Shown piece by piece: positions 11,648 to 60,268 of a DNA stretch of 64,000 nt. Origin of the DNA: Prostheceraeus crozeri (taxonomy: Eukaryota; Platyhelminthes; Polycladida; Euryleptidae); the NCBI GenBank assembly GCA_907163375.1, contig CAJQUW010001866.1, positions 186,001 to 250,000 of the forward strand, read 5' to 3'. How positions within the stretch are numbered: position 1 is the stretch's first letter; each line of letters starts with the position of its first letter. The translations under genes and the position numbers were made by a program. The notes under the pieces were generated by a model. It was not told the origin of the DNA. It did no database searches and saw only the letters and a program-made list of their open reading frames with translations.

Positions 11648-11653
11648 TATAAT
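11648..11653 (+). repeat. Target-site duplication, left copy (TATAAT)
   Basis: TATAAT directly precedes the element's terminal AG. The same six bases follow its terminal CT at 34,882-34,887. Six-base duplications are the rule for Polintons. Confidence 0.82.
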
Positions 11654-14440
11654 AGTAGTAACAAAAGGTCCAGAATAAACACAGCGCGCCCCCCCCTCCC
11701 CCCCTACCCCTACCCCTACCCCTACCCCCCTACCCCTACCCCCCTCCTCTCTTCCTCCTCCTCCCTGTCCTGGGGTGTTGTGCCGCCCGGGTGGGCTTGG
11801 GTGCCGGCCTGGTGGACGTGGTGTGCCGGCCTGGTGGACGTGGTGTGCCGGCCTGGTGGACGTGGTGTCCATCGTCTTCCTCGTCAAAAATGGTCTCAAC
11901 AAGTTTTTCCACCCGGGGGGGGTTGGGTGGGAGGAAATCCAAAGTGTCGAAATTCGATGCGCCAGTGCTACCATCGTCTTCCTCGTCAAAAGTTAGGTCG
12001 ACAAGTTTTTCCCACCCTACCCCCCCCTACCCCCCCCCGGGAGAGCTAGCTGCTATCTCGGCTTCTAGTGGACGGATTTTGTTCGTTCGGGTTGCATTCG
12101 AAAGAGGATGAAAAACTAACCTATGACATTTTTTGGCGCGAGTCAATCCGATCAGCCGTTCAAAAGTTAGAGCGGTTACAAGATTTTAGGAAAGGTTGAA
12201 AAAATCCTAAGTGTCAGAGTGACTGTGTACGGTAAAAATGAAAATTTTTTTCCAAAGTGTCGAATTTCGATGCGCCAGTGCTGCCATCGTCTTTCTCGTC
12301 AAAAGTTAGGTCGACAAGTTTTTTCCCACCCTACCCCTACCCCCCTACCCCTACCCCTACCCCTACCCCTACCCCCCCCGGGAGAGCTAGCTGCTATCTC
12401 GGCTTCTAGTGGACGGATTTTGTTCGTTCGGGTTGCATTCGAAAGAGGATGAAAAACTAACCTATGACATTTTTTGGCGCGAGTCAATCCGATCAGCCGT
12501 TCAAAAGTTAGAGCGGTTACAAGATTTTAGGTCGGAGCTCACCTGAAAAAATCCTAAGTGTCAGAGTGACTGTGTACGGTAAAAATGAAAAATTTTTTCC
12601 AAAGTGTCGAATTTCGATGCGCCAGTGCTACCATCGTCTTTCTCGTCAAAAGTTAGGTCGACAAGTTTTTCCCACCCTACCCCCCTACCCCTACCCCTAC
12701 CCCTACCCCTACCCCCCCCCCCGGGAGAGCTAGCTGCTATCTCGGCTTCTAGTGGACGGATTTTGTCTTACAGCTACTCGTTTGAAAGAGGAGAAAAAAC
12801 TGCTCGACGACATTTTTTGGCGCGAGTCAATCCGATCAGCCGTTCAAAAGTTAGAGCGGTTACAAGATTTTAGGTCGGAGCTCACCTGAAAAAATCCTAA
12901 GTGTCAGAGTGACTGTGTACGGTAAAAATGAAAATTTTTTTTCCAAAGTGTCGAATTTCGATGCGCCAGTGCTACCATCGTCTTTCTCGTCAAAAGTTAG
13001 GTCGACAAGTTTTTCCCACCCTACCCCCCTACCCCTACCCCTACCCCCCCCCGGGAGAGCTAGCTGCTATCTCGGCTTCTAGTGGACGGATTTTGTTCGT
13101 TCGGGTTGCATTCGAAAGAGGATGAAAAACTAACCTATGACATTTTTTGGCGCGAGTCAATCCGATCAGCCGTTCAAAAGTTAGAGCGGTTACAAGATTT
13201 TAGGAAAGGTTGAAAAAATCCTAAGTGTCAGAGTGACTGTGTACGGTAAAAATGAAAAATTTTTTCCAAAGTGTCGAATTTCGATGCGCCAGTGCTACCA
13301 TCGTCTTTCTCGTCAAAAGTTAGGTCGACAAGCTTTTCCCACCCTACCCCTACCCCCCTACCCCTACCCCTACCCCTACCCCTACCTCTACCCCCCCCGG
13401 GAGAGCTAGCTGCTATCTCGGCTTCTAGTGGACGGATTTTGTCTTACAGCTACTCGTTTGAAAGAGGAGAAAAAACTGCTCGACGACATTTTTTGGCGCG
13501 AGTCAATCCGATCAGCCGTTCAAAAGTTAGAGCGGTTACAAGATTTTAGGTCGGAGCTCACCTGAAAAAATCCTAAGTGTCAGAGTGACTGTGTACGGTA
13601 AAAATGAAAATTTTTTTCCAAAGTGTCGAATTTCGATGCGCCAGTGCTACCATCGTCTTTCTCGTCAAAAGTTAGGTCGACAAGTTTTTCCCACCCTACC
13701 CCCCTACCCCTACCCCTACCCCCCCCCGGGAGAGCTAGCTGCTATCTCGGCTTCTAGTGGACGGATTTTGTTCGTTCGGGTTGCATTCGAAAGAGGATGA
13801 AAAACTAACCTATGACATTTTTTGGCGCGAGTCAATCCGATCAGCCGTTCAAAAGTTAGAGCGGTTACAAGATTTTAGGAAAGGTTGAAAAAATCCTAAG
13901 TGTCAGAGTGACTGTGTACGGTAAAAATGAAAAATTTTTTCCAAAGTGTCGAATTTCGATGCGCCAGTGCTACCATCGTCTTTCTCGTCAAAAGTTAGGT
14001 CGACAAGTTTTTCCCACCCTACCCCTACCCCCCTACCCCTACCCCTACCCCTACCCCCCCCCCGGGAGAGCTAGCTGCTATCTCGGCTTCTAGTGGACGG
14101 ATTTTGTCTTACAGCTACTCGTTTGAAAGAGGAGAAAAAACTGCTCGACGACATTTTTTGGCGCGAGTCAATCCGATCAGCCGTTCAAAAGTTAGAGCGG
14201 TTACAAGATTTTAGGTCGGAGCTCACCTGAAAAAATCCTAAGTGTCAGAGTGACTGTGTACGGTAAAAATGAAAAATTTTTTCCAAAGTGTCGAATTTCG
14301 ATGCGCCAGTGCTACCATCGTCTTTCTCGTCAAAAGTTAGGTCGACAAGTTTTTCCCACCCTACCCCCCTACCCCTACCCCTACCCCCCCCCCGGGAGAG
14401 CTAGCTGCTATCTCGGCTTCTAGTGGACGGATTTAGTCGT
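11654..14440 (+). repeat. Left subterminal array with CCCCTA tracts
   Basis: Eight units of about 330 bp each start with a C-rich tract of CCCTA/CCCCTA repeats and then CCGGGAGAGCTAGCTGCTAT (tract ends near 12,038, 12,378, 12,720, 13,052, 13,397, 13,726, 14,062 and 14,393). Two unit variants mostly alternate, marked by GTTCGTTCGGGTTGCATTCG or GTCTTACAGCTACTCGTTTG and by the tails AAAGGTTG or TCGGAGCTCACCTG. A 22-bp GTGCCGGCCTGGTGGACGTG motif is repeated three times near 11,800-11,870. The G-rich strand runs 5' to 3' toward the element end, as in a telomere. Confidence 0.93.
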
Positions 14441-14916
14441 GCCATAGCTCGTTTGAAAGCTAAGAGTGAGACAAATTCACTGAAAGAAACGGCTTGTTCC
14501 TATCTGTCTTCGTTTAGATGTGAGACGCCATTTAAGATTTTGGGACATTGGCGAAAAACGACAGAGTTAGAATTTGGGACGTTTTGGGCTGTAGCTTCAA
14601 AACGAAGCATCGGATTGGAAAACGGATTTCAGATTTGGAATCAGCGTGAAATTCTCTATCTGTACGGTGAGTTTCAAGTCAATCGGAGATTTTGATGTCA
14701 ATCGGAGAGAAAAATTTTCAACATTTTTCGAAAAAACGACAGAGTTAGAATTTTTGCGATGGCTGCCTACTGTGGAGCCAAAACGAAGCATCGGATGGGA
14801 AAACGGAGGCTAGATTTGGATTCAGCGTCAAATTCTACGTGGATATGGTGTATTTCCAGCTCAATCGAACCTCCAGAATCGATGATAGACGGGTTTTCAG
14901 TGTTTGGATGATGGGT
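14441..14916 (+). repeat. Inner subterminal repeat block
   Basis: Diverged repeats of about 150-180 bp share CGACAGAGTTAGAATTT, CAAAACGAAGCATCGGAT and TCAAGTCAATCGGAGA. The same block occurs mirrored at about 31,600-32,070 and in the second element at about 63,000-63,780. Confidence 0.8.
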
Positions 14917-14951
14917 ATTACGTCATCAGCTGATCGCAACACACTATATAA
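14917..14951 (+). promoter_or_regulatory. Promoter: CRE-like site, E-box, TATA box
   Basis: ATTACGTCAT (14,917-14,926), CAGCTG (14,927-14,932) and TATATAA (14,945-14,951) lie in a row, pointing inward to the spliced coiled-coil gene. The block is conserved in the mirror copy and in the second element while neighbouring sequence differs, which argues for function. Confidence 0.7.
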
Positions 14952-14974
14952 GCTGGGAACCGAGAGAGACTTGT

Positions 14975-15654
14975 CATTAAGACGAGAGCGATTGTCAGAG
15001 GTAGGTCGTCTCTCTGAGCTCCGATGATAGCTTCGGACATTCCAAATCCCGAGTTTCTGAAAGAAACCGACTTAGAAAATTTCATTGCTGATATCAGCTA
15101 AGGCGTCAGACTTAGAGGTTAGCCAGGAGATGGCCTTCGTCTCCAGGCCATAAAAGACTCCAAAATTTTAAAGGCTCGTAACTTTGCTTCTACAAGTCCG
15201 TTTGACTTGATTTAAAAAAGGTTCGGTCGCTATTGACCTGCCCTAAGTGATAGACTACTTATAAAATTTCATAAGTAGTACTAAAAAGTTGAAAAATTTA
15301 AATTCACTAGTTTTGGAGGTTTTCTGGGGTTTTCGACCCTGCTGAATTCAACTAAGGCATTTATAATGTTGTACGAGGCGAGCTTCAGCTCGAGACTTGT
15401 TTCCTGATGTAAATAACTCCACCGATTTTCATGTCAAAATCGGGGTCCGAATACCAACACAGTGATATGACGCACGCTCTGTCCGTCGGAGGTTGGATTT
15501 GTGGGCCGAGGCCTTGGAGTTGGGATAAGATCCCCTCTGAGTAATGCCTGTAACGGATTCATCAGCTTAACTTGTCTATCCTCGACGACTACATGTAAGA
15601 CAATATCATTTCGTTTGCTAACAAGCGACTTTGTTTTTCTTGCAGTTTCACGTT
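14975..15654 (+). other. 5' leader with one intron
   Basis: A long non-coding leader lies between the TATA box and the ATG at 15,655. A likely 51-nt intron (GTAAGA at 15,595 to TTGCAG at 15,645) ends nine bases before the ATG. Confidence 0.55.
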
Positions 15655-16871
15655 ATGACTACCTCGAAAAATGTACGATTCCTCGTGGGGAAATGCTCCT
15701 GTGGGAGAATTGCTCGCGGAACTGAATTGAAAAAGCATGTTGCGGCGTTTGATGGACATGAGAAGCGTGTGTTGAAGAGAGTGTGCGTAGTTGAGCGTGT
15801 TGAGTGTGGGAAGGATGAGGCGGCGGAGGATTTTTATAAAAAGCATAAAGAGTGTGAGTCGGGGAAGATTACGGATAGCGATTTTAAGGCGTGGTTTGAG
15901 GGTTTGTTGTTGGAGGATGAAGAGAATGAGGCGGTGAAGACAATTGAGGCTGCGGTTGAGAAAGAGACTGAAGAGAGGGTAATTAAGAAAGCGCCTGTAG
16001 TGCCTGTAGTGAGGGTGATTGAGAAAGTACCTGTAGCGCCTGTAGTGACTGATGCAGACCTCGATCGCGATCTCGCTATGAGCGAGATGAGTAGTGAAGA
16101 GGAAGAGAGCGAGGTGAGGGGTGTTGTAATGCAGAAGAAGAAGAGTATTGTTGAAGAGCGGGACGCGACGATGAGGAGGCTTTTCGGTGACAAGGTTACC
16201 TTAGGAAAGCCAAAAGCCTCCTCATCGCCTCAGAAAGATCAGAGGTCGAGTGATTGCTTTGAATACAATCAGATGAAGGATCGAATGAGTGCGATGGAGA
16301 ATACGAATAAGAGAGTGCTGGCGGAGAATGAGTTGTTGAAAGGGAAAGTGAGTGCGATAAAGCAGATGAAAGAGGAGATGGTGATGATGATGGAGGCGGA
16401 GAAGCGTTGGTCTGAGGAAAAGAAAGAGATGATGGCGAAGGTGTCTGAGTGTGATGAGTTGAAGCGTGTTTTGAAGAAGCAGAAGGCTGAATGTGAGAGA
16501 TTGAGAGTGATTGCGAAGGATGTGGATGAAGTGAGGGCGATAAATGAGAAGTTGGGGAGTGAATGTGAGAGAATGAGTGGTTTGTTGAAGAGAGGAGTGA
16601 AGAGGAGCTATGAGGTACACCTCCCCCTCTACGAGAACGACATCTGCGACGTGCCCACTATGACAGATGACCCTGATATAACGCAAATGTGCTACGAGGG
16701 GGAGGGGGTGAAGTGTCTCCATTTAAATTTGAAAATAGACGGACAATTGGAGGACTTCATCGTCAGAAAAGTGAAAAAGAAGAAGCCGAGTAAGTTACTT
16801 TAAAATATATTTTCTAATTCTAATCTAATTCAATTTCCTTTCTATTTTCAGAGTTTTTACAAAATTCTTGA
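15655..16871 (+). CDS. Zinc-binding coiled-coil protein, left-arm copy
   Basis: The ATG at 15,655 opens a protein of about 380 residues. It has a Cys/His N-terminus (KCSCGRIARG, later HKECE), an acidic, Ser- and Val-rich middle with APVVPVV repeats, a long charged coiled coil (KQMKEEMVMMMEAEKR...RVLKKQKAECERLR), and a C-terminal module with MCYEGEGVKCLHLNL. An intron at 16,790-16,851 (GTAAGT...TTTCAG) replaces the unspliced C-terminus and gives a stop at 16,871. A homologue with an intron in the equivalent place is found at 60,651-61,823. It is the gene nearest the terminal repeats in both elements. Function is unknown; DNA-end binding or a structural role would be guesses. Confidence 0.8.
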
Positions 16872-16880
16872 GTCGACCCA

Positions 16881-17225
16881 CTAACCTAATCCCGTGAACG
16901 AACCATAGGTCCTCTTAAGGGCCCCTTCTAATGTAGCTAAAGTGGTCCCAAGCCCACGACATGCTTTCAAGCATGGATACAGAGGGGAAGGTAACAATGC
17001 AAATGAAGTTCGGTGTAATACTTCCTTTCGACGGGCGTTCCTGTATAGGACGGCGGTGAAACCCATAGCTATGTATACCGCAAGGGACATTCGGCAATGG
17101 TCAATCTTGTTAAACCTCTCTGCGTCATGTTTGCAAGTGATTGCCTCTGTCTCAACGTAGTATGCATTCGCGCCAGGGCGACATTTAGCCAACTGTCGAA
17201 GGTTGCCTAAAACTTTCCATTGCAT
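16881..17225 (-). CDS. Conserved hypothetical ORF, 114 residues
   Basis: This minus-strand frame (QLAKCRPGANAYYVETEAI, CRMSLAVYIAMGF) is recognisable in all three copies in the window, though the second element's copy (60,269-60,508) changes frame near its end. In the mirror copy one substitution creates a stop just after the start. No known family was recognised; it may be an exon of a longer gene or a decaying gene. Confidence 0.4.
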   Translation of the reverse strand: MQWKVLGNLRQLAKCRPGANAYYVETEAITCKHDAERFNKIDHCRMSLAVYIAMGFTAVLYRNARRKEVLHRTSFALLPSPLYPCLKACRGLGTTLATLEGALKRTYGSFTGLG

Positions 17226-17246
17226 ACGTTATGAGAACCATGAGTT

Positions 17247-17447
17247 CTACCTGTCTCTATCAATGAGACGAATTGATGAATGGAATGAAATGGGAGGACA
17301 CTCACGCGCCACACGCAACATAACACACTTCTCTCTTCCGTAGTCTAACAAGCTCTTTACACATGGATCGCAGTCGATTGCTATCCCTGTATCAGAAGTG
17401 TAAGCTATCTTAATTTTATCTAACACTATTTCACCTACCATTATCAT
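17247..17447 (-). CDS. Conserved hypothetical ORF, 66 residues
   Basis: It encodes MIMVGEIVLDKIKIAYTSDT and CDPCVKSLLDYGREKCVMLR. It is almost the same in the second element (60,050-60,247), with only a few changes at the start, which suggests coding constraint. Function is unknown. Confidence 0.45.
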   Translation of the reverse strand: MIMVGEIVLDKIKIAYTSDTGIAIDCDPCVKSLLDYGREKCVMLRVARECPPISFHSSIRLIDRDR

Positions 17448-17591
17448 CCATATGAAATGTTATAAGAATTGCAAGTTAAACTAAGTGTGCTACTATTTCC
17501 AAATGAAAAAGTATACATGGTTAAATCATCCACTGAAGCCCCATTCAAGTAAGTCAGTATGAAAGCAAAGATAATATGAAATAAAAATTTA

Positions 17592-17807
17592 TTATGGCAT
17601 GTATTTCAAAAGGTCTTCATCGTCAATATCATCCCAGAGTCTGGCTTCACATAGATCACAAAAACAGTTCACTTGCTTCAATCGTTCTTCTACCGCGAGC
17701 CTCACTTTGTCGATGTACTCCCACTCCGCTATAGTTCGTGGCTGGGAGTTAGGGGTGTACCATTCCCATAATTGGTGGAGGAATTTGGTGCTGGCGGTCT
17801 CCATCAC
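17592..17807 (-). pseudogene. C-terminal half of a conserved small protein
   Basis: The 71 codons (STKFLHQLWEWYTPNSQ... WDDIDDEDLLKYMP) match the second half of a 148-residue protein of the second element (59,456-59,902). The N-terminal half is missing: homology starts at the equivalent of about 17,807, and repeats follow. This is one of the breakpoints between the shared right end and the sequence peculiar to the palindrome. Confidence 0.65.
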
Positions 17808-18420
17808 TATTCGTGAGTGTCGTTAGAAAGTGTATCATGGTTTGTAAAAGTTTTACTGCAACACAGGTTGATGTATAGTTAGAAAAGTTTGATCATCAAC
17901 GTTGTATTCGTAAGTCTAGTCAGAAACTTTATCATGTTGTACAAAAGTTTTATTGCAACACAGGTTGATGTATAGTTAGAAAGTTTGATCATTAACGTTT
18001 TATTTGTAAGTCTAGTCAGAAAGTGCATCATGGTTTGCAAAGTTAGTGTAGTCAAATAATTTTACTGTGACACCCGTTTGAGAAAGTAAAGTCTGATCAT
18101 CGAAGTTGTATTCGTGAGTGTCGTTAGAAAGTGTATCATTGTTTGTAAAAGTTTTACTGCAACACAGGTTGATGTATAGTTAGAAAAGTTTGATCATGAC
18201 GTTTTATGAAACACACATGTCATGAAATGTAAGCGTTAGTGTAGTCAAATAATTTACCGCGACGCACGTTTGTGAAAATAAAGTTTGATCATTGACGTTA
18301 TATGATTGACCGAACTCATCACAGCACTAGAAAGTTTTAGAAGGTTTTATTTACTGCACAGTGTAGATTGTCTTGTAACTTACTTTCACAGCGTTAGAAA
18401 GTTTTATTGGAGACAGTTGC
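17808..18420. repeat. Degenerate tandem repeats, left arm
   Basis: Units of roughly 110-130 bp recur, with GTTAGAAAGTGTATCATGGT, GTTTTACTGCAACACAGGTT and AAGTTTGATCAT. They lie between the truncated small gene and the RING/exonuclease genes. Confidence 0.75.
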
Positions 18421-19135
18421 CAAATGTTTCCCTATTAGAAATTCAAACTTCATGACTGTTAGATTAGCTTCATCAGGTTTAGTAAAAGCAGTTTTCTACT
18501 GCAGTAAGACTGCGAGTTTAGAATGTTATATGAAAACAGTGTCCATCACAGCGCTAGAAAGTTTTACTGCGCTGTGTAGATTGTTTCACACAAGGTCTTA
18601 TAGTCAGCGTTGAATGTTTTATAAAACCAGATGTTGTCACACACGTTGAGTGTATGAGAGCTAGTTCCATGACATTGAATCGCATGGATTGTAAAGTTCA
18701 TAATCCAAGGCTAGGCTCCTGTACGGTTGGATTTAGGGTTTTATATTACATGCGTTAACCGTTCGTGTAGAATATGTGAAGCAGATGTTCGCTTAAATGC
18801 AAATGTTGAAATAAGTTTTGTAAGAAGTCTTTGACAGGTTGTTGTGAAACGTAGCGAACGTTGAAGAAATGTTTCTGCAGTCACACTCGTTAGCGTGCCA
18901 GCTTTACTAAATGTATTCTATTCTCCAATGAGAATTGTTGTCTAATGAGAATCAAGCCTTCCACAGTGAGAATCATTCCATCGTTGAATCATACAAGTGA
19001 TGGACGCACATTCTCTCTTTGGGATATCATTTTCAAAGTGAATGGGCTATATTATGGTCAGCACAAGGATAACAAAATAGTCTCTCTCGATATACACTGA
19101 ATCCATCCTATATATTCCAAAGCCACCCAACGTAG
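18421..19135. other. Probable upstream region of the RING-like gene
   Basis: No strong coding signal. It contains AGAATTGTTGTCTAATGAGA and GAGAATCATTCC near-repeats at 18,930-18,980. Confidence 0.35.
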
Positions 19136-19390
19136 ATGACATTATTGACTTCCTTAACGGGGGTGGTACGAAGCGCAAGTCGGACAATAATGCTACCTCC
19201 AAACGCAAGTCAAGGAAAGAGAATTGCTAATCCTTTCCTAACTCTACCCTATGACAATTCGCTTATGTGCTTTGAGTGTCGTAGACGTGGTCTTATTAGA
19301 TACATTTTACTTCTTCGTTGCCATCATATCATTTGTGTATTTTGTCGTGAAAAGCATCGATGTAATTCTTCATTTTGTAATATGTTATAG
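19136..19390 (+). CDS. Small RING-like zinc-finger protein
   Basis: The C-terminal half reads MCFECRRRGLIRYILLLRC followed by HHIICVFCREKHRCNSSFC. The spacing C-x2-C, C-x-H, C-x2-C and a last C pair resembles a C3HC4 RING finger, a fold used by E3 ubiquitin ligases. The frame upstream differs between arms by one G in a homopolymer (five in the left arm, six in the right), so the start is uncertain and an internal ATG (VRSASRT) may be used. It is followed 52 bp later by the exonuclease-like gene. Confidence 0.5.
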   Translation: MTLLTSLTGVVRSASRTIMLPPNASQGKRIANPFLTLPYDNSLMCFECRRRGLIRYILLLRCHHIICVFCREKHRCNSSFCNML

Positions 19391-19442
19391 AACGCTTCCT
19401 TAGATGTGTAAATTTCCGTTTTAGGCTTCTATCATCATTTTT

Positions 19443-19973
19443 ATGGATTGTGAGGGTGAACCTGTACAGGAGCTCAGTGCTATTGCTATGAACAATTGGA
19501 CATATCAGATTGTTAGTGTCTATCATCAACATGCCAACTGCGATCCCAATGTTGATCAATGGGCGAGAAAACACATTCATGGACTTAATCTGAAATATTT
19601 GCAAGACTATGGCTTTTCTTGTGAGAGTGCTCTTCTTATTGACTTTAAACGATGGTTAGCTGCTTTCAATGTTATACGCATCTTTTGTATTAATCCTGGT
19701 AAGGAGAGGAAAGTATTTCCCAATCTAATCATTGATGATATTTTGCTCCCGCCTTGGGATAGTAGAGTGAATCAACATTATCATGAAGTCACGAAACGTT
19801 TTAAGGATTTGTGTGTTCCTATTTTGTCTGTTCGTTGTAGTAGCTACGTTCATAACCAATGCTTCTTTCCTCCTTACCTCAACACTGCCAAAGTCCTGTA
19901 TGGTTATCATTGCTCGCTGTATGATAGTTACCAGCTGTGTCTATTTTATCTCTTTCAAACCATTGATTTATAA
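19443..19973 (+). CDS. DEDDh 3'-5' exonuclease-like protein
   Basis: The 176-residue frame begins MDCEGEPVQELSAI, an ExoI-type D-x-E motif followed by the usual V-x-E-x-x-x-I strand. HIHGLN and DFKRWLAAFNVIRIFCINP follow in the middle, and near the end HCSLYDSYQL gives the H-x4-D ExoIII motif. This order fits DEDDh exonucleases, which remove 3' nucleotides. The middle catalytic Asp is not obvious (NP where D is usual), so activity is uncertain. A TTTTAG just upstream could be a splice acceptor, so the real start may lie in an earlier exon. Both arms carry the same protein. Confidence 0.55.
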   Translation: MDCEGEPVQELSAIAMNNWTYQIVSVYHQHANCDPNVDQWARKHIHGLNLKYLQDYGFSCESALLIDFKRWLAAFNVIRIFCINPGKERKVFPNLIIDDILLPPWDSRVNQHYHEVTKRFKDLCVPILSVRCSSYVHNQCFFPPYLNTAKVLYGYHCSLYDSYQLCLFYLFQTIDL

Positions 19974-20091
19974 TGCATGCTTGTTACCGTTATTCAATAA
20001 ATGTTACTATGAGAAGAGTTATTGTTTTCATGCAATGAATGGGTTAGATAAAGGGCGATCATGTCTTTCTCAAACGACTGTGGAACATTGA

Positions 20092-23010
20092 TTTCCATGA
20101 TGAAGATTTAAACAGTTAGATTCGATGACGAATAAGATTTACTAGTTTGCAAGTTAGACTAAGCGTTCTATTATTTGTAAATGAAAGATATAGTTTCAAC
20201 AGTGTGTACGTTAGAAATAAAGTTTTATCTGTTTGTAAAATGAGATTGTAGGATTTACTAGTTTGCAAGTTAGACTAAGCGTTCTACTATTTGTAAATGA
20301 AAGATATAGTTTCAATAGTTTACAGATTACAAAATAAAGTTTCAATAGTGTTTATGTTAAAAATAAAGTTTAAGCTGTTTGTATGTTAGAAATAGAATAA
20401 AGTTTCAACAGTTTGTCGATTAAAAATAAAGTTTCAACAGTGTGTACGTTAGAAATAAAGTTTTATCTGTTTGTAAATGAGATTGTAGGATTTACTAGTT
20501 TACAAGTTAAGAATAAAGTTCTATCTACTTGTATGTCAGAAATGAAATAAAGTTTCACCAGTTTAAAAGTTAAGAATAAAGTTTCAATAGTGTGTATGTT
20601 AAGAATAAAGTTCTGTCTGTTTATATGTTAGAAATGAAATGAAGTTTCGCCAGTTTACAAGTTAAGAATAAATTTTATCTGCTTGTATGTTAGAAATGAA
20701 ATAAAGTTTCAATAGTGTGTACGTTAGAAATAAAGTTTCAATAGTGTGTATGTTAAGAATAAAGTTTTATCTGTTTGTATGTTAGAAATAAAATGAAGTT
20801 TCGCCAGTTTACAAGTTAAGAATAAATTTTATCTGCTTGTATGTTAGAAATGAAATAAAGTTTCACCAGTTTACAAGTTAAAAATAAAGTTTCAATAGTT
20901 TGCAAGTTAAAACTAATGTTTCAATAGTGCGTATGTTAAGAATAAAGTTTTATCTGTTTGTATGTTAGAAATAAAATGAAGTTTCACCAGTTTACAAGTT
21001 AAGAATAAATTTTATCTGCTTGTATGTTAGAATTAAAACAAAGTTTCACCAGTTTACAAGTTAAAAAATAAAGTTTCAATAGTGTGTACGTTAGAAATAA
21101 AGTTTCAATAGCGTGTATGTTAAGAATAAAGTTTCAGATGAAAATAAAGTTTCAAAAGTGTATATGATGGAAATAAAGTTTAAGCGCTTTGTGCGTTAGA
21201 AATAAAGTTTCAGCCGTTTACAAGTTAAAAATAAAGTTTCAACAGTGTGTACGTTAAGAATAAAGTTCTATCTGTTTATATGTTAGAAACAAAATAAGAA
21301 TGAAGGTTCACCAGTTTACAAGTTAAGAATAAAGTTTTATCTGTTTGTATGTTAGAAATAAAACAAAGTTTCAACCGTTTACAAGTTAAAAATAAAGTTT
21401 CAGATGAAAATAAAGTTTCAATAGTGTGTATGATGGAAATAAAGTTTAAGCGCTTTGTGCGTTAGAAATAAAGTTTCAGCCGTTTACAAGTTAAAAATAA
21501 AGTTTCAACAGTGTCTACGTTAAGAATAAAGTTCTATCTGTTTATATGTTAGAAATAAAAACGAAGGTTCACCAGTTTACAAGTTAAGAATAAAGTTTTA
21601 TCTGCTTGCATGTCAGAAGTGAAATAAAGTTTCACCAGTTTAAAAGTTAAGAATAAAGTTTCAATAGTGTGTATGTTGAGAATAAAGTTCTATCTGTTTA
21701 TATGTTAGAAATAAAATGAAGTTTCACCAGTTTACAAGTTAAGAATAAATTTTATCTGCTTGTATGTTAGAAATAAAATAAAGTTTCACCAGTTTACAAG
21801 TTAAAAAATAAAGTTTCAATAGTGTGTACGTTAGAAATAAAGTTTCAATAGTGTGTATGTTAAGAATAAAGTTTTATCTGTTTGTATGTTAGAAATAAAA
21901 CAAAGTTTCAACCGTTAACAAGTTAAAAATAAAGTTTCAGATTAAAATAAAGTTTCAATAGTGTGTATGATGGAAATAAATTTTAAGCGCTTTGTGCGTT
22001 AGAAATAAAGTTTCAGCCGCCTACAAGTTAAAAATAAAGTTTCAATAGTCTGCATGTTAAGAATAAAGTTCTATCTGTTTATATGTTAGAAATAAAATGA
22101 AGGTTCACCAGTTTACAAGTTAAGAATAAATTTTATCTGCTTGTATGTTAGAATTAAAACAAAGTTTCACCAGTTTACAAGTTAAAAAATAAAGTTTCAA
22201 TAGTGTGTACGTTAGAAATAAAGTTTCAATAGCGTGTATGTTAAGAATAAAGTTTTATCTGTTCGTATGTTAGAAATAAAATGAAGGTTCATCAGTTTAC
22301 AAGTTAATAATAAAGTTTCACCAGTTTAAAAGTTAAGAATAAAGTTTCAATAGTGTGTATGTTAAGAATAAAGTTCTGTCTGTTTATATGTTAGAAATAA
22401 AATGAAGTTTCGCCAGTTTACAAGTTAAGAATAAATTTTATCTGCTTGTATGTTAGAAATGAAATAAAGTCTCACCAGTTTACAAGTTAAAAATAAAGTT
22501 TCAATAGTTTGCAAGTTAAAACTAATGTTTCAATAGTGCGTATGTTAAGAATAAAGTTTTATCTGTTTGTATGTTGGAAATAAAATGAAGCTTCGCCAGT
22601 TTACAAGTTAAGAATAAAGTTTTATCAGCTTGTATGTTAGAAATAAAATGAAGTTTCACCAGTTTACAAATTAAAAATAAAGTTTCAATGGTGTGTACAT
22701 TAGTAATAAAGTTTCAACCGTTTACAAGTTAAAAATAAAGTTTCAACAGTGTCTATGTTAGAAATAAAGTTTTATCTGTTTGTAAAATACGATCGTAGGA
22801 TTTACTAGTTTGCAAGTTAGACTCAGCATTCTACTAGTTGTAAATGAAAATATCGTTTCAACAGTTTACAGATTAAAATAAAGTTTCAATAGTGTGTATG
22901 ATGGAAATAAAGTTTAAGCGCTTTGTGCGTTAGAAATAAAGTTTCAACAGTTTACAAGTTGAAAAATAAAGTTTCAACAGTGTATACGTTAGAAATAAAT
23001 GAAAGTAAGA
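20092..23010 (+). repeat. AATAAA-rich satellite-like array, left arm
   Basis: Nearly 3 kb of imperfect repeats built from modules such as AATAAAGTTTCAATAGTGTG, TATGTTAAGAATAAAGTTTT and ATCTGTTTGTATGTTAGAAA. Nearly every module contains AATAAA on the strand read from the exonuclease gene toward the axis. No coding frame of note occurs. Confidence 0.92.
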
Positions 23011-23086
23011 ACTTCATCGTATGAGTATTCAAACCATGTTTTGTAAATCAAATGTGTATAGTCCTGACATGATAGAATCAAATGAA

Positions 23087-23108
23087 CTTGACAAACGCGT
23101 TTGTCAAG
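23087..23108. repeat. Axis of the palindrome: perfect 22-bp inverted repeat
   Basis: CTTGACAAAC-GCGTTTGTCAAG is self-complementary about 23,097/23,098. A few bases further out the symmetry has a small indel, then resumes through GATAGAATC and GTCCTGACATGATAG on both sides. Confidence 0.93.
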
Positions 23109-23111
23109 CTT

Positions 23112-23356
23112 GATTCTATCATGTCAGGACTATACACATTTGATTTACAAAACATGGTTTGAATACTCATACGATGAAGTTCTTACTTTCATTTATTTCT
23201 AACGTACACACTGTTGAAACTTTATTTTTCAACTTGTAAACTGGCGAAACTTTATTTTGTTTCTAACATATAAACAGCTAAAACTTTATTTCTAACGTAC
23301 ACACTGTTGAAACTTTATTTTTAACTTGTAAACGGCTGAAACTTTATTTCTAACAC
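23112..23356. repeat. 246-bp duplication beside the axis
   Basis: GATTCTATCATGTCAGGACT occurs at 23,112 and again at 23,357. The first copy and the repeats after it form an extra segment present only on the right of the axis; the left arm pairs best with the second copy. Confidence 0.8.
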
Positions 23357-23419
23357 GATTCTATCATGTCAGGACTACACACATTTGATTTACAAAACAT
23401 GCTTTGAATACTCATACGA

Positions 23420-26400: not shown

Positions 26401-26537
26401 CAAATCTTCATCATGGAAATCAATGTTCCACAGTCGTTTGAGAAAGACATGATCGCCCTTTATCTAACCCATTCATTGCATGAAAACAATAACTCTTCTC
26501 ATAGTAACATTTATTGAATAACGGTAACAAGCATGCA

Positions 26538-27068
26538 TTATAAATCAATGGTTTGAAAGAGATAAAATAGACACAGCTGGTAACTATCATACAGCGAGCA
26601 ATGATAACCATACAGGACTTTGGCAGTGTTGAGGTAAGGAGGAAAGAAGCATTGGTTATGAACGTAGCTACTACAACGAACAGACAAAATAGGAACACAC
26701 AAATCCTTAAAACGTTTCGTGACTTCATGATAATGTTGATTCACTCTACTATCCCAAGGCGGGAGCAAAATATCATCAATGATTAGATTGGGAAATACTT
26801 TCCTCTCCTTACCAGGATTAATACAAAAGATGCGTATAACATTGAAAGCAGCTAACCATCGTTTAAAGTCAATAAGAAGAGCACTCTCACAAGAAAAGCC
26901 ATAGTCTTGCAAATATTTCAGATTAAGTCCATGAATGTGTTTTCTCGCCCATTGATCAACATTGGGATCGCAGTTGGCATGTTGATGATAGACACTAACA
27001 ATCTGATATGTCCAATTGTTCATAGCAATAGCACTGAGCTCCTGTACAGGTTCACCCTCACAATCCAT
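26538..27068 (-). CDS. DEDDh exonuclease-like protein, right-arm copy
   Basis: The 176-residue protein is identical to the left-arm copy at 19,443-19,973, with the same D-x-E start and H-x4-D end. Two identical convergent copies would double gene dosage and give complementary transcripts if transcription ran through the axis. Confidence 0.55.
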   Translation of the reverse strand: MDCEGEPVQELSAIAMNNWTYQIVSVYHQHANCDPNVDQWARKHIHGLNLKYLQDYGFSCESALLIDFKRWLAAFNVIRIFCINPGKERKVFPNLIIDDILLPPWDSRVNQHYHEVTKRFKDLCVPILSVRCSSYVHNQCFFPPYLNTAKVLYGYHCSLYDSYQLCLFYLFQTIDL

Positions 27069-27120
27069 AAAAATGATGATAGAAGCCTAAAACGGAAATT
27101 TACACATCTAAGGAAGCGTT

Positions 27121-27348
27121 CTATAACATATTACAAAATGAAGAATTACATCGATGCTTTTCACGACAAAATACACAAATGATATGATGGCAACGAAGAA
27201 GTAAAATGTATCTAATAAGACCACGTCTACGACACTCAAAGCACATAAGCGAATTGTCATAGGGTAGAGTTAGGAAAGGATTAGCAATTCTCTTTCCTTG
27301 ACTTGCGTTTGGAGGTAGCATTATTGTCCGACTTGCGCTTCGTACCAC
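27121..27348 (-). CDS. RING-like protein, right-arm copy
   Basis: Same zinc-finger part as 19,136-19,390. The extra G in the right arm changes the frame upstream of the internal ATG, so the copies differ only in a possible N-terminal extension. Confidence 0.5.
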   Translation of the reverse strand: MVRSASRTIMLPPNASQGKRIANPFLTLPYDNSLMCFECRRRGLIRYILLLRCHHIICVFCREKHRCNSSFCNML

Positions 27349-28091
27349 CCCCCGTTAAGGAAGTCAATAATGTCATCTACGTTGGGTGGCTTTGGAATAT
27401 ATAGGATGGATTCAGTGTATATCGAGAGAGACTATTTTGTTATCCTTGTGCTGACCATAATATAGCCCATTCACTTTGAAAATGATATCCCAAAGAGAGA
27501 ATGTGCGTCCATCACTTGTATGATTCAACGATGGAATGATTCTCACTGTGGAAGGCTTGATTCTCATTAGACAACAATTCTCATTGGAGAATAGAATACA
27601 TTTAGTAAAGCTGGCACGCTAACGAGTGTGACTGCAGAAACATTTCTTCAACGTTCGCTACGTTTCACAACAACCTGTCAAAGACTTCTTACAAAACTTA
27701 TTTCAACATTTGCATTTAAGCGAACATCTGCTTCACATATTCTACACGAACGGTTAACGCATGTAATATAAAACCCTAAATCCAACCGTACAGGAGCCTA
27801 GCCTTGGATTATGAACTTTACAATCCATGCGATTCAATGTCATGGAACTAGCTCTCATACACTCAACGTGTGTGACAACATCTGGTTTTATAAAACATTC
27901 AACGCTGACTATAAGACCTTGTGTGAAACAATCTACACAGCGCAGTAAAACTTTCTAGCGCTGTGATGGACACTGTTTTCATATAACATTCTAAACTCGC
28001 AGTCTTACTGCAGTAGAAAACTGCTTTTACTAAACCTGATGAAGCTAATCTAACAGTCATGAAGTTTGAATTTCTAATAGGGAAACATTTG

Positions 28092-28704
28092 GCAACTGTC
28101 TCCAATAAAACTTTCTAACGCTGTGAAAGTAAGTTACAAGACAATCTACACTGTGCAGTAAATAAAACCTTCTAAAACTTTCTAGTGCTGTGATGAGTTC
28201 GGTCAATCATATAACGTCAATGATCAAACTTTATTTTCACAAACGTGCGTCGCGGTAAATTATTTGACTACACTAACGCTTACATTTCATGACATGTGTG
28301 TTTCATAAAACGTCATGATCAAACTTTTCTAACTATACATCAACCTGTGTTGCAGTAAAACTTTTACAAACAATGATACACTTTCTAACGACACTCACGA
28401 ATACAACTTCGATGATCAGACTTTACTTTCTCAAACGGGTGTCACAGTAAAATTATTTGACTACACTAACTTTGCAAACCATGATGCACTTTCTGACTAG
28501 ACTTACAAATAAAACGTTAATGATCAAACTTTCTAACTATACATCAACCTGTGTTGCAATAAAACTTTTGTACAACATGATAAAGTTTCTGACTAGACTT
28601 ACGAATACAACGTTGATGATCAAACTTTTCTAACTATACATCAACCTGTGTTGCAGTAAAACTTTTACAAACCATGATACACTTTCTAACGACACTCACG
28701 AATA
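28092..28704. repeat. Degenerate tandem repeats, right arm
   Basis: Mirror of the repeats at 17,808-18,420. Confidence 0.75.
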
Positions 28705-28920
28705 GTGATGGAGACCGCCAGCACCAAATTCCTCCACCAATTATGGGAATGGTACACCCCTAACTCCCAGCCACGAACTATAGCGGAGTGGGAGTACATC
28801 GACAAAGTGAGGCTCGCGGTAGAAGAACGATTGAAGCAAGTGAACTGTTTTTGTGATCTATGTGAAGCCAGACTCTGGGATGATATTGACGATGAAGACC
28901 TTTTGAAATACATGCCATAA
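28705..28920 (+). pseudogene. C-terminal half of conserved small protein, right arm
   Basis: Mirror of 17,592-17,807. Similarity to the second element starts at about 28,707 (pairing with about 59,688) and continues outward, which fixes the inner edge of the shared right end. Confidence 0.65.
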
Positions 28921-29064
28921 TAAATTTTTATTTCATATTATCTTTGCTTTCATACTGACTTACTTGAATGGGGCTTCAGTGGATGATTTAACCATGTATA
29001 CTTTTTCATTTGGAAATAGTAGCACACTTAGTTTAACTTGCAATTCTTATAACATTTCATATGG

Positions 29065-29265
29065 ATGATAATGGTAGGTGAAATAGTGTTAGATAAAATT
29101 AAGATAGCTTACACTTCTGATACAGGGATAGCAATCGACTGCGATCCATGTGTAAAGAGCTTGTTAGACTACGGAAGAGAGAAGTGTGTTATGTTGCGTG
29201 TGGCGCGTGAGTGTCCTCCCATTTCATTCCATTCATCAATTCGTCTCATTGATAGAGACAGGTAG
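29065..29265 (+). CDS. Conserved hypothetical ORF, 66 residues, right arm
   Basis: Mirror of 17,247-17,447, identical protein. It ends AGACAG-GTAG, so splicing to a later exon is conceivable but no in-frame acceptor was found. Confidence 0.45.
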   Translation: MIMVGEIVLDKIKIAYTSDTGIAIDCDPCVKSLLDYGREKCVMLRVARECPPISFHSSIRLIDRDR

Positions 29266-29319
29266 AACTCATGGTTCTCATAACGTATGCAATGGTAAGT
29301 TTTAGGCAACCTTCGACAG

Positions 29320-29631
29320 TTGGCTAAATGTCGCCCTGGCGCGAATGCATACTACGTTGAGACAGAGGCAATCACTTGCAAACATGACGCAGAGAGGTTT
29401 AACAAGATTGACCATTGCCGAATGTCCCTTGCGGTATACATAGCTATGGGTTTCACCGCCGTCCTATACAGGAACGCCCGTCGAAAGGAAGTATTACACC
29501 GAACTTCATTTGCATTGTTACCTTCCCCTCTGTATCCATGCTTGAAAGCATGTCGTGGGCTTGGGACCACTTTAGCTACATTAGAAGGGGCCCTTAAGAG
29601 GACCTATGGTTCGTTCACGGGATTAGGTTAG
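29320..29631 (+). pseudogene. Conserved hypothetical ORF, right arm, stop near start
   Basis: Mirror of 16,881-17,225. At 29,296 the right arm has T where the left arm and the second element imply A, turning the fourth codon into TAA and creating GGTAAGT. Only an internal start remains. Confidence 0.45.
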
Positions 29632-29640
29632 TGGGTCGAC

Positions 29641-30857
29641 TCAAGAATTTTGTAAAAACTCTGAAAATAGAAAGGAAATTGAATTAGATTAGAATTAGAA
29701 AATATATTTTAAAGTAACTTACTCGGCTTCTTCTTTTTCACTTTTCTGACGATGAAGTCCTCCAATTGTCCGTCTATTTTCAAATTTAAATGGAGACACT
29801 TCACCCCCTCCCCCTCGTAGCACATTTGCGTTATATCAGGGTCATCTGTCATAGTGGGCACGTCGCAGATGTCGTTCTCGTAGAGGGGGAGGTGTACCTC
29901 ATAGCTCCTCTTCACTCCTCTCTTCAACAAACCACTCATTCTCTCACATTCACTCCCCAACTTCTCATTTATCGCCCTCACTTCATCCACATCCTTCGCA
30001 ATCACTCTCAATCTCTCACATTCAGCCTTCTGCTTCTTCAAAACACGCTTCAACTCATCACACTCAGACACCTTCGCCATCATCTCTTTCTTTTCCTCAG
30101 ACCAACGCTTCTCCGCCTCCATCATCATCACCATCTCCTCTTTCATCTGCTTTATCGCACTCACTTTCCCTTTCAACAACTCATTCTCCGCCAGCACTCT
30201 CTTATTCGTATTCTCCATCGCACTCATTCGATCCTTCATCTGATTGTATTCAAAGCAATCACTCGACCTCTGATCTTTCTGAGGCGATGAGGAGGCTTTT
30301 GGCTTTCCTAAGGTAACCTTGTCACCGAAAAGCCTCCTCATCGTCGCGTCCCGCTCTTCAACAATACTCTTCTTCTTCTGCATTACAACACCCCTCACCT
30401 CGCTCTCTTCCTCTTCACTACTCATCTCGCTCATAGCGAGATCGCGATCGAGGTCTGCATCAGTCACTACAGGCGCTACAGGTACTTTCTCAATCACCCT
30501 CACTACAGGCACTACAGGCGCTTTCTTAATTACCCTCTCTTCAGTCTCTTTCTCAACCGCAGCCTCAATTGTCTTCACCGCCTCATTCTCTTCATCCTCC
30601 AACAACAAACCCTCAAACCACGCCTTAAAATCGCTATCCGTAATCTTCCCCGACTCACACTCTTTATGCTTTTTATAAAAATCCTCCGCCGCCTCATCCT
30701 TCCCACACTCAACACGCTCAACTACGCACACTCTCTTCAACACACGCTTCTCATGTCCATCAAACGCCGCAACATGCTTTTTCAATTCAGTTCCGCGAGC
30801 AATTCTCCCACAGGAGCATTTCCCCACGAGGAATCGTACATTTTTCGAGGTAGTCAT
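29641..30857 (-). CDS. Zinc-binding coiled-coil protein, right-arm copy
   Basis: Mirror of the gene at 15,655-16,871 with the same encoded protein. The equivalent intron is 29,661-29,722. Transcription starts outside, near the terminal repeats, and runs inward. Confidence 0.8.
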
Positions 30858-31560
30858 AACGTGAAACTGCAAGAAAAACAAAGTCGCTTGTTAGCAAACG
30901 AAATGATATTGTCTTACATGTAGTCGTCGAGGATAGACAAGTTAAGCTGATGAATCCGTTACAGGCATTACTCAGAGGGGATCTTATCCCAACTCCAAGG
31001 CCTCGGCCCACAAATCCAACCTCCGACGGACAGAGCGTGCGTCATATCACTGTGTTGGTATTCGGACCCCGATTTTGACATGAAAATCGGTGGAGTTATT
31101 TACATCAGGAAACAAGTCTCGAGCTGAAGCTCGCCTCGTACAACATTATAAATGCCTTAGTTGAATTCAGCAGGGTCGAAAACCCCAGAAAACCTCCAAA
31201 ACTAGTGAATTTAAATTTTTCAACTTTTTAGTACTACTTATGAAATTTTATAAGTAGTCTATCACTTAGGGCAGGTCAATAGCGACCGAACCTTTTTTGA
31301 ATCAAGTCAAACGGACTTGTAGAAGCAAAGTTACGAGCCTTTAAAATTTTGGAGTCTTTTATGGCCTGGAGACGAAGGCCATCTCCTGGCTAACCTCTAA
31401 GTCTGACGCCTTAGCTGATATCAGCAATGAAATTTTCTAAGTCGGTTTCTTTCAGAAACTCGGGATTTGGAATGTCCGAAGCTATCATCGGAGCTCAGAG
31501 AGACGACCTACCTCTGACAATCGCTCTCGTCTTAATGACAAGTCTCTCTCGGTTCCCAGC

Positions 31561-31595
31561 TTATATAGTGTGTTGCGATCAGCTGATGACGTAAT
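31561..31595 (-). promoter_or_regulatory. Promoter: CRE-like site, E-box, TATA box, right arm
   Basis: Mirror of 14,917-14,951: TTATATA (31,561-31,567), CAGCTG (31,580-31,585), ATGACGTAAT (31,586-31,595). Confidence 0.7.
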
Positions 31596-32089
31596 ACCCA
31601 TCATCCAAACACTGAAAACCCGTCTATCATCGATTCTGGAGGTTCGATTGAGCTGGAAATACACCATATCCACGTAGAATTTGACGCTGAATCCAAATCT
31701 AGCCTCCGTTTTCCCATCCGATGCTTCGTTTTGGCTCCACAGTAGGCAGCCATCGCAAAAATTCTAACTCTGTCGTTTTTTCGAAAAATGTTGAAAATTT
31801 TTCTCTCCGATTGACATCAAAATCTCCGATTGACTTGAAACTCACCGTACAGATAGAGAATTTCACGCTGATTCCAAATCTGAAATCCGTTTTCCAATCC
31901 GATGCTTCGTTTTGAAGCTACAGCCCAAAACGTCCCAAATTCTAACTCTGTCGTTTTTCGCCAATGTCCCAAAATCTTAAATGGCGTCTCACATCTAAAC
32001 GAAGACAGATAGGAACAAGCCGTTTCTTTCAGTGAATTTGTCTCACTCTTAGCTTTCAAACGAGCTATGGCACGACTAAATCCGTCCAC

Positions 32090-34881
32090 TAGAAGCCGAG
32101 ATAGCAGCTAGCTCTCCCGGGGGGGGGTAGGGGTAGGGGTAGGGGTAGGGGGGTAGGGTGGGAAAAACTTGTCGACCTAACTTTTGACGAGAAAGACGAT
32201 GGTAGCACTGGCGCATCGAAATTCGACACTTTGGAAAAAATTTTTCATTTTTACCGTACACAGTCACTCTGACACTTAGGATTTTTTCAGGTGAGCTCCG
32301 ACCTAAAATCTTGTAACCGCTCTAACTTTTGAACGGCTGATCGGATTGACTCGCGCCAAAAAATGTCGTCGAGCAGTTTTTTCTCCTCTTTCAAACGAGT
32401 AGCTGTAAGACAAAATCCGTCCACTAGAAGCCGAGATAGCAGCTAGCTCTCCCGGGGGGGGGTAGGGGTAGGGGTAGGGGTAGGGGTAGGGGTAGGGGGG
32501 TAGGGGTAGGGTGGGAAAAACTTGTCGACCTAACTTTTGACGAGAAAGACGATGGTAGCACTGGCGCATCGAAATTCGACACTTTGGAAAAAATTTTTCA
32601 TTTTTACCGTACACAGTCACTCTGACACTTAGGATTTTTTCAACCTTTCCTAAAATCTTGTAACCGCTCTAACTTTTGAACGGCTGATCGGATTGACTCG
32701 CGCCAAAAAATGTCATAGGTTAGTTTTTCATCCTCTTTCGAATGCAACCCGAACGAACAAAATCCGTCCACTAGAAGCCGAGATAGCAGCTAGCTCTCCC
32801 GGGGGGGGGGTAGGGGTAGGGGTAGGGGGGGTAGGGTGGGAAAAACTTGTCGACCTAACTTTTGACGAGAAAGACGATGGTAGCACTGGCGCATCGAAAT
32901 TCGACACTTTGGAAAAAAATTTTCATTTTTACCGTACACAGTCACTCTGACACTTAGGATTTTTTCAGGTGAGCTCCGACCTAAAATCTTGTAACCGCTC
33001 TAACTTTTGAACGGCTGATCGGATTGACTCGCGCCAAAAAATGTCGTCGAGCAGTTTTTTCTCCTCTTTCAAACGAGTAGCTGTAAGACAAAATCCGTCC
33101 ACTAGAAGCCGAGATAGCAGCTAGCTCTCCCGGGGGGGGGTAGGGGTAGGGGTAGGGGTAGGGGTAGGGGGGTAGGGGTAGGGTGGGAAAAAACTTGTCG
33201 ACCTAACTTTTGACGAGAAAGACGATGGCAGCACTGGCGCATCGAAATTCGACACTTTGGAAAAAAATTTTCATTTTTACCGTACACAGTCACTCTGACA
33301 CTTAGGATTTTTTCAACCTTTCCTAAAATCTTGTAACCGCTCTAACTTTTGAACGGCTGATCGGATTGACTCGCGCCAAAAAATGTCATAGGTTAGTTTT
33401 TCATCCTCTTTCGAATGCAACCCGAACGAACAAAATCCGTCCACTAGAAGCCGAGATAGCAGCTAGCTCTCCCGGGGGGGGTAGGGGTAGGGGTAGGGGT
33501 AGGGGTAGGGGGGTAGGGTGGGAAAAACTTGTCGACCTAACTTTTGACGAGAAAGACGATGGTAGCACTGGCGCATCGAAATTCGACACTTTGGAAAAAA
33601 ATTTTCATTTTTACCGTACACAGTCACTCTGACACTTAGGATTTTTTCAGGTGAGCTCCGACCTAAAATCTTGTAACCGCTCTAACTTTTGAACGGCTGA
33701 TCGGATTGACTCGCGCCAAAAAATGTCGTCGAGCAGTTTTTTCTCCTCTTTCAAACGAGTAGCTGTAAGACAAAATCCGTCCACTAGAAGCCGAGATAGC
33801 AGCTAGCTCTCCCGGGGGGGGGGTAGGGGTAGGGGTAGGGGTAGGGGGGTAGGGTGGGAAAAACTTGTCGACCTAACTTTTGACGAGAAAGACGATGGTA
33901 GCACTGGCGCATCGAAATTCGACACTTTGGAAAAAATTTTTCATTTTTACCGTACACAGTCACTCTGACACTTAGGATTTTTTCAACCTTTCCTAAAATC
34001 TTGTAACCGCTCTAACTTTTGAACGGCTGATCGGATTGACTCGCGCCAAAAAATGTCATAGGTTAGTTTTTCATCCTCTTTCGAATGCAACCCGAACGAA
34101 CAAAATCCGTCCACTAGAAGCCGAGATAGCAGCTAGCTCTCCCGGGGGGGGGTAGGGGTAGGGGTAGGGGTAGGGGTAGGGGGGTAGGGGTAGGGTGGGA
34201 AAAAACTTGTCGACCTAACTTTTGACGAGAAAGACGATGGCAGCACTGGCGCATCGAAATTCGACACTTTGGAAAAAAATTTTCATTTTTACCGTACACA
34301 GTCACTCTGACACTTAGGATTTTTTCAACCTTTCCTAAAATCTTGTAACCGCTCTAACTTTTGAACGGCTGATCGGATTGACTCGCGCCAAAAAATGTCA
34401 TAGGTTAGTTTTTCATCCTCTTTCGAATGCAACCCGAACGAACAAAATCCGTCCACTAGAAGCCGAGATAGCAGCTAGCTCTCCCGGGGGGGGGTAGGGG
34501 GGGGGTAGGGTGGGAAAAACTTGTCGACCTAACTTTTGACGAGGAAGACGATGGTAGCACTGGCGCATCGAATTTCGACACTTTGGATTTCCTCCCACCC
34601 AACCCCCCCCCGGGTGGAAGAACTTGTTGAGACCATTTTTGACGAGGAAGACGATGGACACCACGTCCACCAGGCCGGCACACCACGTCCACCAGGCCGG
34701 CACACCACGTCCACCAGGCCGGCACCCAAGCCCACCCGGGCGGCACAACACCCCAGGACAGGGAGGAGGAGGAAGAGAGGAGGGGGGTAGGGGTAGGGGT
34801 AGGGGGGTAGGGGGGTAGGGGTAGGGGTAGGGGGGGAGGGGGGGGGCGCGCTGTGTTTATTCTGGACCTTTTGTTACTACT
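32090..34881 (-). repeat. Right subterminal array with TAGGGG tracts
   Basis: Eight ~330-bp units mirror the left array, with G-rich TAGGGG tracts of slightly different length. Unit two from the end carries the AAAGGTTG-type tail here but the TCGGAGCTCACCTG-type tail in the left arm, so the arrays are not exact copies. Confidence 0.93.
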
Positions 34882-34887
34882 TATAAT
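34882..34887 (+). repeat. Target-site duplication, right copy (TATAAT)
   Basis: Follows the terminal CT and matches 11,648-11,653. Confidence 0.82.
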
Positions 34888-49811: not shown

Positions 49812-50165
49812 TACCACGCTGCCGAGAAACAAGCACACAGTCCCAATAACGAAATGAATAACCACTTCATTAGCACAATAGGCTCAGCAAGTAGACACGG
49901 GGCGGGCGTTGTGTTCACTACAGTACTCTGCTTCACACCAGTGAAAGAGTTTAAGAGTGGATATACTATTTATGCATTTGATTTGACTGCTGACAGCGAT
50001 ATTAGTGCACCCTATCGTCAAGCGAACGTGCCTCATAATATTCGTTTGGATTTGACGTTCAAAAGAACACTACCTGAGACGATCAATGTATTAATTTATG
50101 CAGTCTTCGATTCAAATATTGAAATTACAAAGTATCGTGACGTGATTCTTCAGTATAATCGTTAA
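49812..50165 (+). pseudogene. Polinton capsid-type protein, C-terminal remnant
   Basis: Only the last ~100 residues remain: FKSGYTIYAFDLTADSDI, IRLDLTFKRTLPETINVLIY and FDSNIEITKYRDVI. This pattern is the C-terminus of a protein conserved in animal Polintons (the F54H12.2-like group), which I believe is capsid-related, though I could not confirm whether it is the major capsid protein. Its start is lost where the element is cut on the left, and its stop overlaps the protease start (TAATG), as in a compact viral gene cluster. Confidence 0.6.
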
Positions 50166-50626: not shown

Positions 50627-50652
50627 AAACATCATGTTGGAAAAATTGTTTT

Positions 50653-51520: not shown

Positions 51521-51542
51521 GATGTGTGGTAGTCATGTCTGA

Positions 51543-51911: not shown

Positions 51912-51934
51912 AGTTGCAGATCAGCAATATAAAA

Positions 51935-53332: not shown

Positions 53333-53371
53333 TGCAAACGTATGCTAATATATTTTTCCAATGTGAATAAT

Positions 53372-60247: not shown

Positions 60248-60268
60248 AACTCATGGTTCTCATAACGT

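Follow-up and report, generated by a model that had tools for sequence, protein, structure and literature searches.

Polintons, or Mavericks, have 6-bp target-site duplications (TSDs) and terminal inverted repeats that begin with AG. The target duplications of Foldback- and Galileo-type elements are 7-9 bp long. Adenoviruses give rise to symmetric snap-back defective genomes, which arise repeatedly during replication and with independent junctions. The window analysed here is a stretch of 64,000 nucleotides from the polyclad flatworm Prostheceraeus crozeri (C1532:186001-250000, contigs being given by C-numbers), in a host assembly of 2.05 Gb and 14165 contigs. It carries a near-perfect palindrome that is a genuine inserted mobile element, confirmed as such, and that probably belongs to a high-copy, non-autonomous family of palindromic Polinton derivatives, founded by a single fold-back and spread as a unit with the polymerase and integrase of helper elements.

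The locus resembles Polintons in its 6-bp TSDs, in its AG-starting inverted ends, and in having these ends in common with an element that holds PolB-region sequence. It departs from the Polintons outlined in PMC4028283 and PMC6431247 in consisting of a single segment present twice in inverted orientation, and in that the four left-arm frames scanned gave no match to a polymerase, integrase, ATPase or capsid protein. The outline in PMC4028283 places a retroviral-type integrase within the element, and no such enzyme was matched in those frames. Because the arm DNA has no match to the polymerase frame of E2 (a second element in the window, described below) and the scanned frames have no Pfam polymerase match, the element is filed as a Polinton derivative rather than as a Polinton with a complete set of genes. 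Elements of the Foldback type (Drosophila FB; Galileo, PMC3573991; Tm1, PMC3169594) likewise combine very long inverted repeats with tandem repeats inside them and a middle that is short or missing, but they have other ends and another TSD size (6 bp here in the perfect cases), and they belong to cut-and-paste superfamilies, whereas here the helpers look Polinton-like and the arms bear open frames. Snap-back defective genomes of adenovirus and, in the summary of PMC8235507, of adeno-associated virus also have one end duplicated in inverted orientation and also depend on a helper; in contrast with these, the present form is integrated, in hundreds of copies, and with one junction (391 of 439 cores). 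The inverted duplications begun by fold-back priming in yeast, as PMC10622511 summarises them, are chromosome rearrangements rather than mobile elements. Among the papers listed in literature searches, judged by title and abstract opening, none describes a palindromic Polinton family.

The palindrome spans positions 11654-34881, with AGTAGTAAC at its start and GTTACTACT at its end. It is the single long inverted match in a self-BLAST of the window (11654-22768 against 34881-23789), and the pairing of the arms continues to the centre, where 22950-23081 and 23110-23241 agree at 99% with 28 nt between them. Aligned over 14435-22999, the arms show 4 mismatches and 2 gaps (one of 1 nt, one of 75 nt). 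A further 20 aligned mismatches and 14 gaps fall in the terminal array (11654-14434), for the most part within microsatellites of C/G runs, and the right arm has, as read from the alignment, an additional unit of ~240 nt adjoining the centre. The arm alignment stops at the ends of the element, nothing in the arm matches the left flank, AGTAGTAACAAAAGGTCCAG opens the element at both ends, and TATAAT stands on either side of it. Self-BLAST and arm alignment, together with end reading and flank comparison, bear out what the original prediction had described: two mirror arms at 11.6-34.9 kb, AG...CT ends, a 6-bp TATAAT duplication and unrelated flanks. AGTAGTAAC occurs twice in the window, only at the two ends; the motif by itself is weak evidence, since two matches were also obtained in 5 of 100 shuffled sequences.

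The centre of the palindrome is asymmetric. Of the 28 nt between the arms, 22 form a perfect palindrome, CTTGACAAACGCGTTTGTCAAG, with a CGCG turn; ATGAA lies to its left and C to its right, after which the mirrored arms resume. To judge from its sequence, this core could form a hairpin. Allowing up to 3 mismatches, it has 1 match in the window and none in 100 shuffles. The bare core lies at 439 places in the host assembly, and at 391 sites the 28-mer across the asymmetric centre is present, 200 in forward and 191 in reverse orientation. A symmetric C form of the centre is found at 10 places, and 38 of the 439 core places fall in neither count and are unclassified; the backward controls for core, 28-mer and C form all gave 0. 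Among the centres read individually, those of C11370, C3846 and C3101 have the asymmetry of the window (C3846 deviates a few bases farther out), that of C837 has it in the opposite orientation, and that of C13943 is symmetric; the centres of C4051, C8346, C514 and C535 retain one half of the core, or part of it. Such altered centres can be read as possible repair footprints. In the C4051 centre (L040), AACGCGTTAATATAAGTTAACGCGTT, itself an inverted repeat, substitutes for one core half and is perhaps such a footprint.

The original prediction had called for a search of the genome for other AGTAGTAAC-ended insertions. The window's 20-bp terminus occurs 425 times in the host assembly (194 on one strand, 231 on the other; none in the backward control), and further 6-bp TSDs were found at other sites. 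A second copy, C11370:13546-37386, has identical 20-bp ends, identical centre letters including the asymmetry, and its own TSD, AATGAA. In the ten elements with both flanks read, the 6-bp TSD is perfect in eight, agrees at 5/6 bases in one (C4051, GAGGTG/GGGGTG) and is absent in one. The perfect cases comprise four palindromes (the window, TATAAT; C11370, AATGAA; C13943, TGAGTG; C8346, ATCGTT) and four other elements (C149, GATGTT; C199, CGCGTC; C315, TGCGTG; C436, GACATA); outside this count stand C421, whose right flank ends with the contig, and C3101, whose left end was not reached. Arm matches show the window, C11370, C13943, C8346 and C4051 to be palindromic, C149 has inverted satellites and the asymmetric centre, and the reading of C199, C315 and C499 covered the flanks and not the interiors. 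Three terminus types were observed, and both ends are of the same type in all five palindromes with both ends read. Among 100 listed of the 425 ends, 38 make 19 converging pairs, 19.3-28.7 kb apart; six of these enclose the asymmetric centre, in five cases within 0.9 kb of the middle and in C421 far off it. Of 76 asymmetric centres, namely the listed ones on contigs covered by both the end and the centre lists, 10 have a window-type end fittingly placed (6 lie within end pairs and 4 next to a lone end).

The candidate helpers are relatives that bear a polymerase. The window itself holds a portion of a second, non-palindromic Polinton-like element (E2), which has two blocks in common with the arm, 14384-15372 (94%) and 16998-17823 (96%). 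Its 1147-codon frame, which we take to be a family-B polymerase from motifs recognised by eye, has no DNA match in the arm. An end pair on C436 has the window's 20-bp terminus and holds E2-like and PolB-region sequence inside, the PolB region being 84% identical to that of E2; it is the only element read for shared ends together with polymerase sequence.

Arm segments were also used as genome queries. With 15600-17800, for which the best 40 of 3268 candidates were scored (73 rows), full-length converging pairs were found on C1532, C11370, C4051, C3101, C627 and C13943, and a single full-length match on C4940. A further 21 matches, at 96-97% and one per contig, end at query position 1909; six more contigs match 1-1399 at 98-99% with additional pieces, and the remaining rows are short pieces. 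All 17 of the 21 position-1909 matches that were read (L014-L030) align with the arm up to window position 17413-17435, and in 15 of the 17 the six best rows of each include N-terminal sequence of the E2 polymerase frame. One match per contig, with the polymerase N-terminus adjoining, suggests that the PolB-class relatives, among the matches listed, hold the coiled-coil region once. With 18200-20130, 20 of the best 40 of 5035 places are converging pairs on ten contigs, with gaps of 4.3-9.4 kb; the other 20 are single, and no diverging pair is among these 40.

These results support two earlier claims: that of a Polinton link, through the terminus shared with the PolB-region element on C436, and that of a non-autonomous element, through the missing polymerase match in the arm. 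The proposal of an integrated snap-back form was right in that the insertion is real, and too small in that there is a family of several hundred with one junction: one common junction in hundreds of places is a family, more than a single integrated defective molecule.

We infer the following route. A Polinton-like element would have folded back once at a short inverted sequence, the 22-bp core, or have been copied around it, giving a molecule of two inverted copies of one end. A polymerase snap-back may have been this founding event, in preference to another fold-back route. Because both ends of such a molecule would be valid element ends, copying and integration would be possible; polymerase and integrase would come from PolB-bearing relatives with the same termini, and 6-bp duplications would be left. 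Helpers would be needed because the E2 polymerase frame has no DNA counterpart in the arm. The intact palindrome would then multiply as a unit, and self-complementarity might ease copying of the genome by a strand-displacing polymerase, since the strand displaced would fold to a full-length hairpin.

The fixed central asymmetry is a built-in marker that distinguishes transposition as a unit from repeated snap-back. If every copy were an independent snap-back of an ordinary Polinton, or if one arm were re-copied right through the centre, differing junctions or symmetric centres would be expected; the same asymmetric 28-mer recurs 391 times against 10 symmetric C forms and 38 unclassified cores, which argues for transposition as a unit, disfavours snap-back at each insertion and makes independent origins very improbable, indeed close to refuted. 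In favour of independent origins, arms are closer within an element (1 to 8 differences, mean 1.0 mismatch per kb, six pairs) than between elements (mean 2.3 per kb, minimum 1 position), as measured over ~3.7 kb, and three variants occur in both arms of one element and nowhere else, 28 others being confined to a single one of 13 arms. The private shared variants and the matched ends point to some copying between arms, though the asymmetry of the centre is mostly kept. It is scarcely credible that the locus is an ordinary Polinton whose terminal repeats are very long and whose unique body dropped out of the assembly. The lone ends listed are 32 minus and 30 plus ends; the distance to the contig start was taken for the minus ends and is at most 13 kb in 24 of the 32, which suggests that the assembly is often broken inside these elements and would suit a lost body; but the central junction is assembled at 439 places, a collapse would not repeatedly join arms via one 22-bp palindrome with identical asymmetry, and no inverted pair is present among the 21 listed matches of PolB class to the coiled-coil region, 17 of which were read. 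The near-identity of the arms would also fit a sequencing or library fold-back at the window locus alone, but the flanks are unlike each other and yet bear a TSD, and a separate copy has the same centre with a different TSD; this explanation is refuted for practical purposes. An assembly fold or artefact is likewise ruled out by the C11370 copy with its own TSD and by the hundreds of assembled centres.

The ends of poxviruses and parvoviruses are hairpin termini. The mobile form might correspondingly be a linear DNA of one arm only, 11.5 kb long and capped by a hairpin, or else a single strand snapped back on itself, the palindrome resulting from copying through the hairpin and the core with its ATGAA/C bulge being the true hairpin terminus. 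The perfect stem, the CGCG turn, the fixed unpaired asymmetry in 391 of 439 centres with orientations about equal, and the satellite arrays that adjoin the centre are all consistent with this, as are end types that match within five palindromes and differ between elements, as though both arms had been copied from one. However, a duplex palindrome moving as a unit predicts the identical asymmetry and the same orientation ratio, gene conversion between arms also accounts for matched ends, and the scan of four arm frames revealed none that would be a recognisable hairpin-processing enzyme; we consider this form unlikely. Somewhat less doubtful, yet still tentative, is a self-complementary Polinton lineage, in which the displaced strand of the 23-kb palindrome would give an 11.5-kb hairpin with a conserved turn. 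If true, copying would use one end type only, with no separate second-strand start, and the elements would be among transposons what self-complementary genomes are among parvoviruses, their centre acting as hairpin terminus; with several hundred copies they might rival their helpers in the genome.

Several observations weigh against a palindromic family spread as a unit. The core figures count junctions and do not show both arms to be complete at every place. Of ten mid-point pieces, two hold the full core, three hold part of one half, and five (C6044, C7334, C6325, C116 and C7278) have none within 1.2 kb; the C627 piece (L094), which missed the centre, is also without a core. The C499 end pair has no TSD. 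The exact asymmetric centre is absent from 13 of the 19 listed end pairs (C436 is of PolB type, and the interiors of the other 12 were not read), and the other 66 of the 76 listed centres have other or unread ends. Some arm pairs between elements (1 mismatch) are closer than pairs within an element (up to 8). No integrase was found in the arm frames, that of the helpers having been sought only among the open reading frames scanned. Among the few interiors read, no PolB-type element was seen to run, as the parent would, through the 17.8-23.1 kb part of the arm and on past the core.

In chromosomes, long perfect palindromes are generally regarded as unstable and rare. Here several hundred like central junctions are assembled in one genome, and the family offers a way to study the replication of Polinton-like elements and the handling of long palindromes by cells.

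Three reading frames lie in each arm, together with tandem arrays of three kinds, whose units are about 330, 97 and 29 nt long (Table 1). From outside to inside these are the ~330-nt array with CCCCTA runs, the 390-codon frame, the 97-nt array, a short, weakly RING-like frame, the 176-codon frame and the A+T-rich 29-nt array. The 390-codon protein has a single database match (99%). The 176-codon protein has 20, and in their alignment D-x-E is kept in those that reach the start, with H-x4-D near the end, a combination which we take to be the DEDDh exonuclease pattern. The sole relevant library support for this identity is a weak RNase_T match (E 0.032) in one of 18 family members, and a solved-structure search with the family gave weak, unrelated-looking matches only. 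Rfam gave no match at gathering scores.

Table 1. Positions of the palindrome, its parts and the E2 features in the window
Feature	Position	Strand	Remarks
TSD TATAAT, left	11648..11653	.	identical 6 bases at 34882-34887
Palindrome, left arm	11654..23081	+	begins AGTAGTAACAAAAGGTCCAG; self-BLAST and arm alignment
Terminal array, left arm	12015..14434	+	~330-nt units with CCCCTA runs; tandem-repeat analysis
390-codon frame, left arm	15631..16803	+	coiled-coil-like by eye; no Pfam/PHROG match
84-codon frame	19136..19390	+	RING-like Cys/His spacing (weak); PF14634 E 0.33, under Pfam cutoff
176-codon frame, left arm	19443..19973	+	resembles DEDDh exonucleases in its motifs (D-x-E close to the start, H-x4-D close to the end)
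A+T-rich satellite, left arm	20143..22999	+	29-nt units; tandem-repeat analysis
Central 22-bp perfect palindrome CTTGACAAACGCGTTTGTCAAG	23087..23108	.	ATGAA directly left, C directly right
Palindrome, right arm	23110..34881	-	mirrors left; ~240-nt additional unit by centre; arm alignment
A+T-rich satellite, right arm	23185..26375	-	29-nt units; tandem-repeat analysis
176-codon frame, right-arm copy	26538..27068	-	reading-frame list
390-codon frame, right-arm copy	29709..30881	-	reading-frame list
Terminal array, right arm	32078..34587	-	tandem-repeat analysis
TSD TATAAT, right	34882..34887	.	read at right flank
E2, portion of second, non-palindromic Polinton-like element	50159..63923	.	bounds rough; right end seems beyond window
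Frame in E2 region	50159-50626		cysteine-protease-like by eye only
TATA-binding-protein frame in E2 region	50653..51357	-	PF00352 E 1.4e-19
Two adjacent E2-region frames, 476 and 416 codons	51902-54892	+	no convincing library match
E2 1147-codon frame	55585..59028	-	Endonuclease_7 domain; no Pfam polymerase match

The left end of E2 was not found, AGTAGTAA lying on neither strand at 35-64 kb. A frame at 60765-61823 holds the position that corresponds to the 390-codon frame of the arm, and tblastn of its protein (P0002) against the arms gave no match. The 476-codon frame has 35 database matches, and a solved-structure search with its family gave weak, unrelated-looking matches only. One of its relatives (P0027) and a relative of the 176-codon arm frame (P0007) are both on contigs 21290 long, which suggests that both genes can occupy one element. 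No relative in viral contigs was found for the E2 polymerase frame, for the 176-codon family or for the 20-bp terminus, in a search from which near-host records may be excluded.

Between the palindrome and E2 (41270-48488) lie a DUF4371 frame (43706-45388), which is presumably hAT-like, and a 606-codon frame with no convincing library match. Directly left of the insertion, at 10949-11427, a 160-nt tandem unit is present three times.

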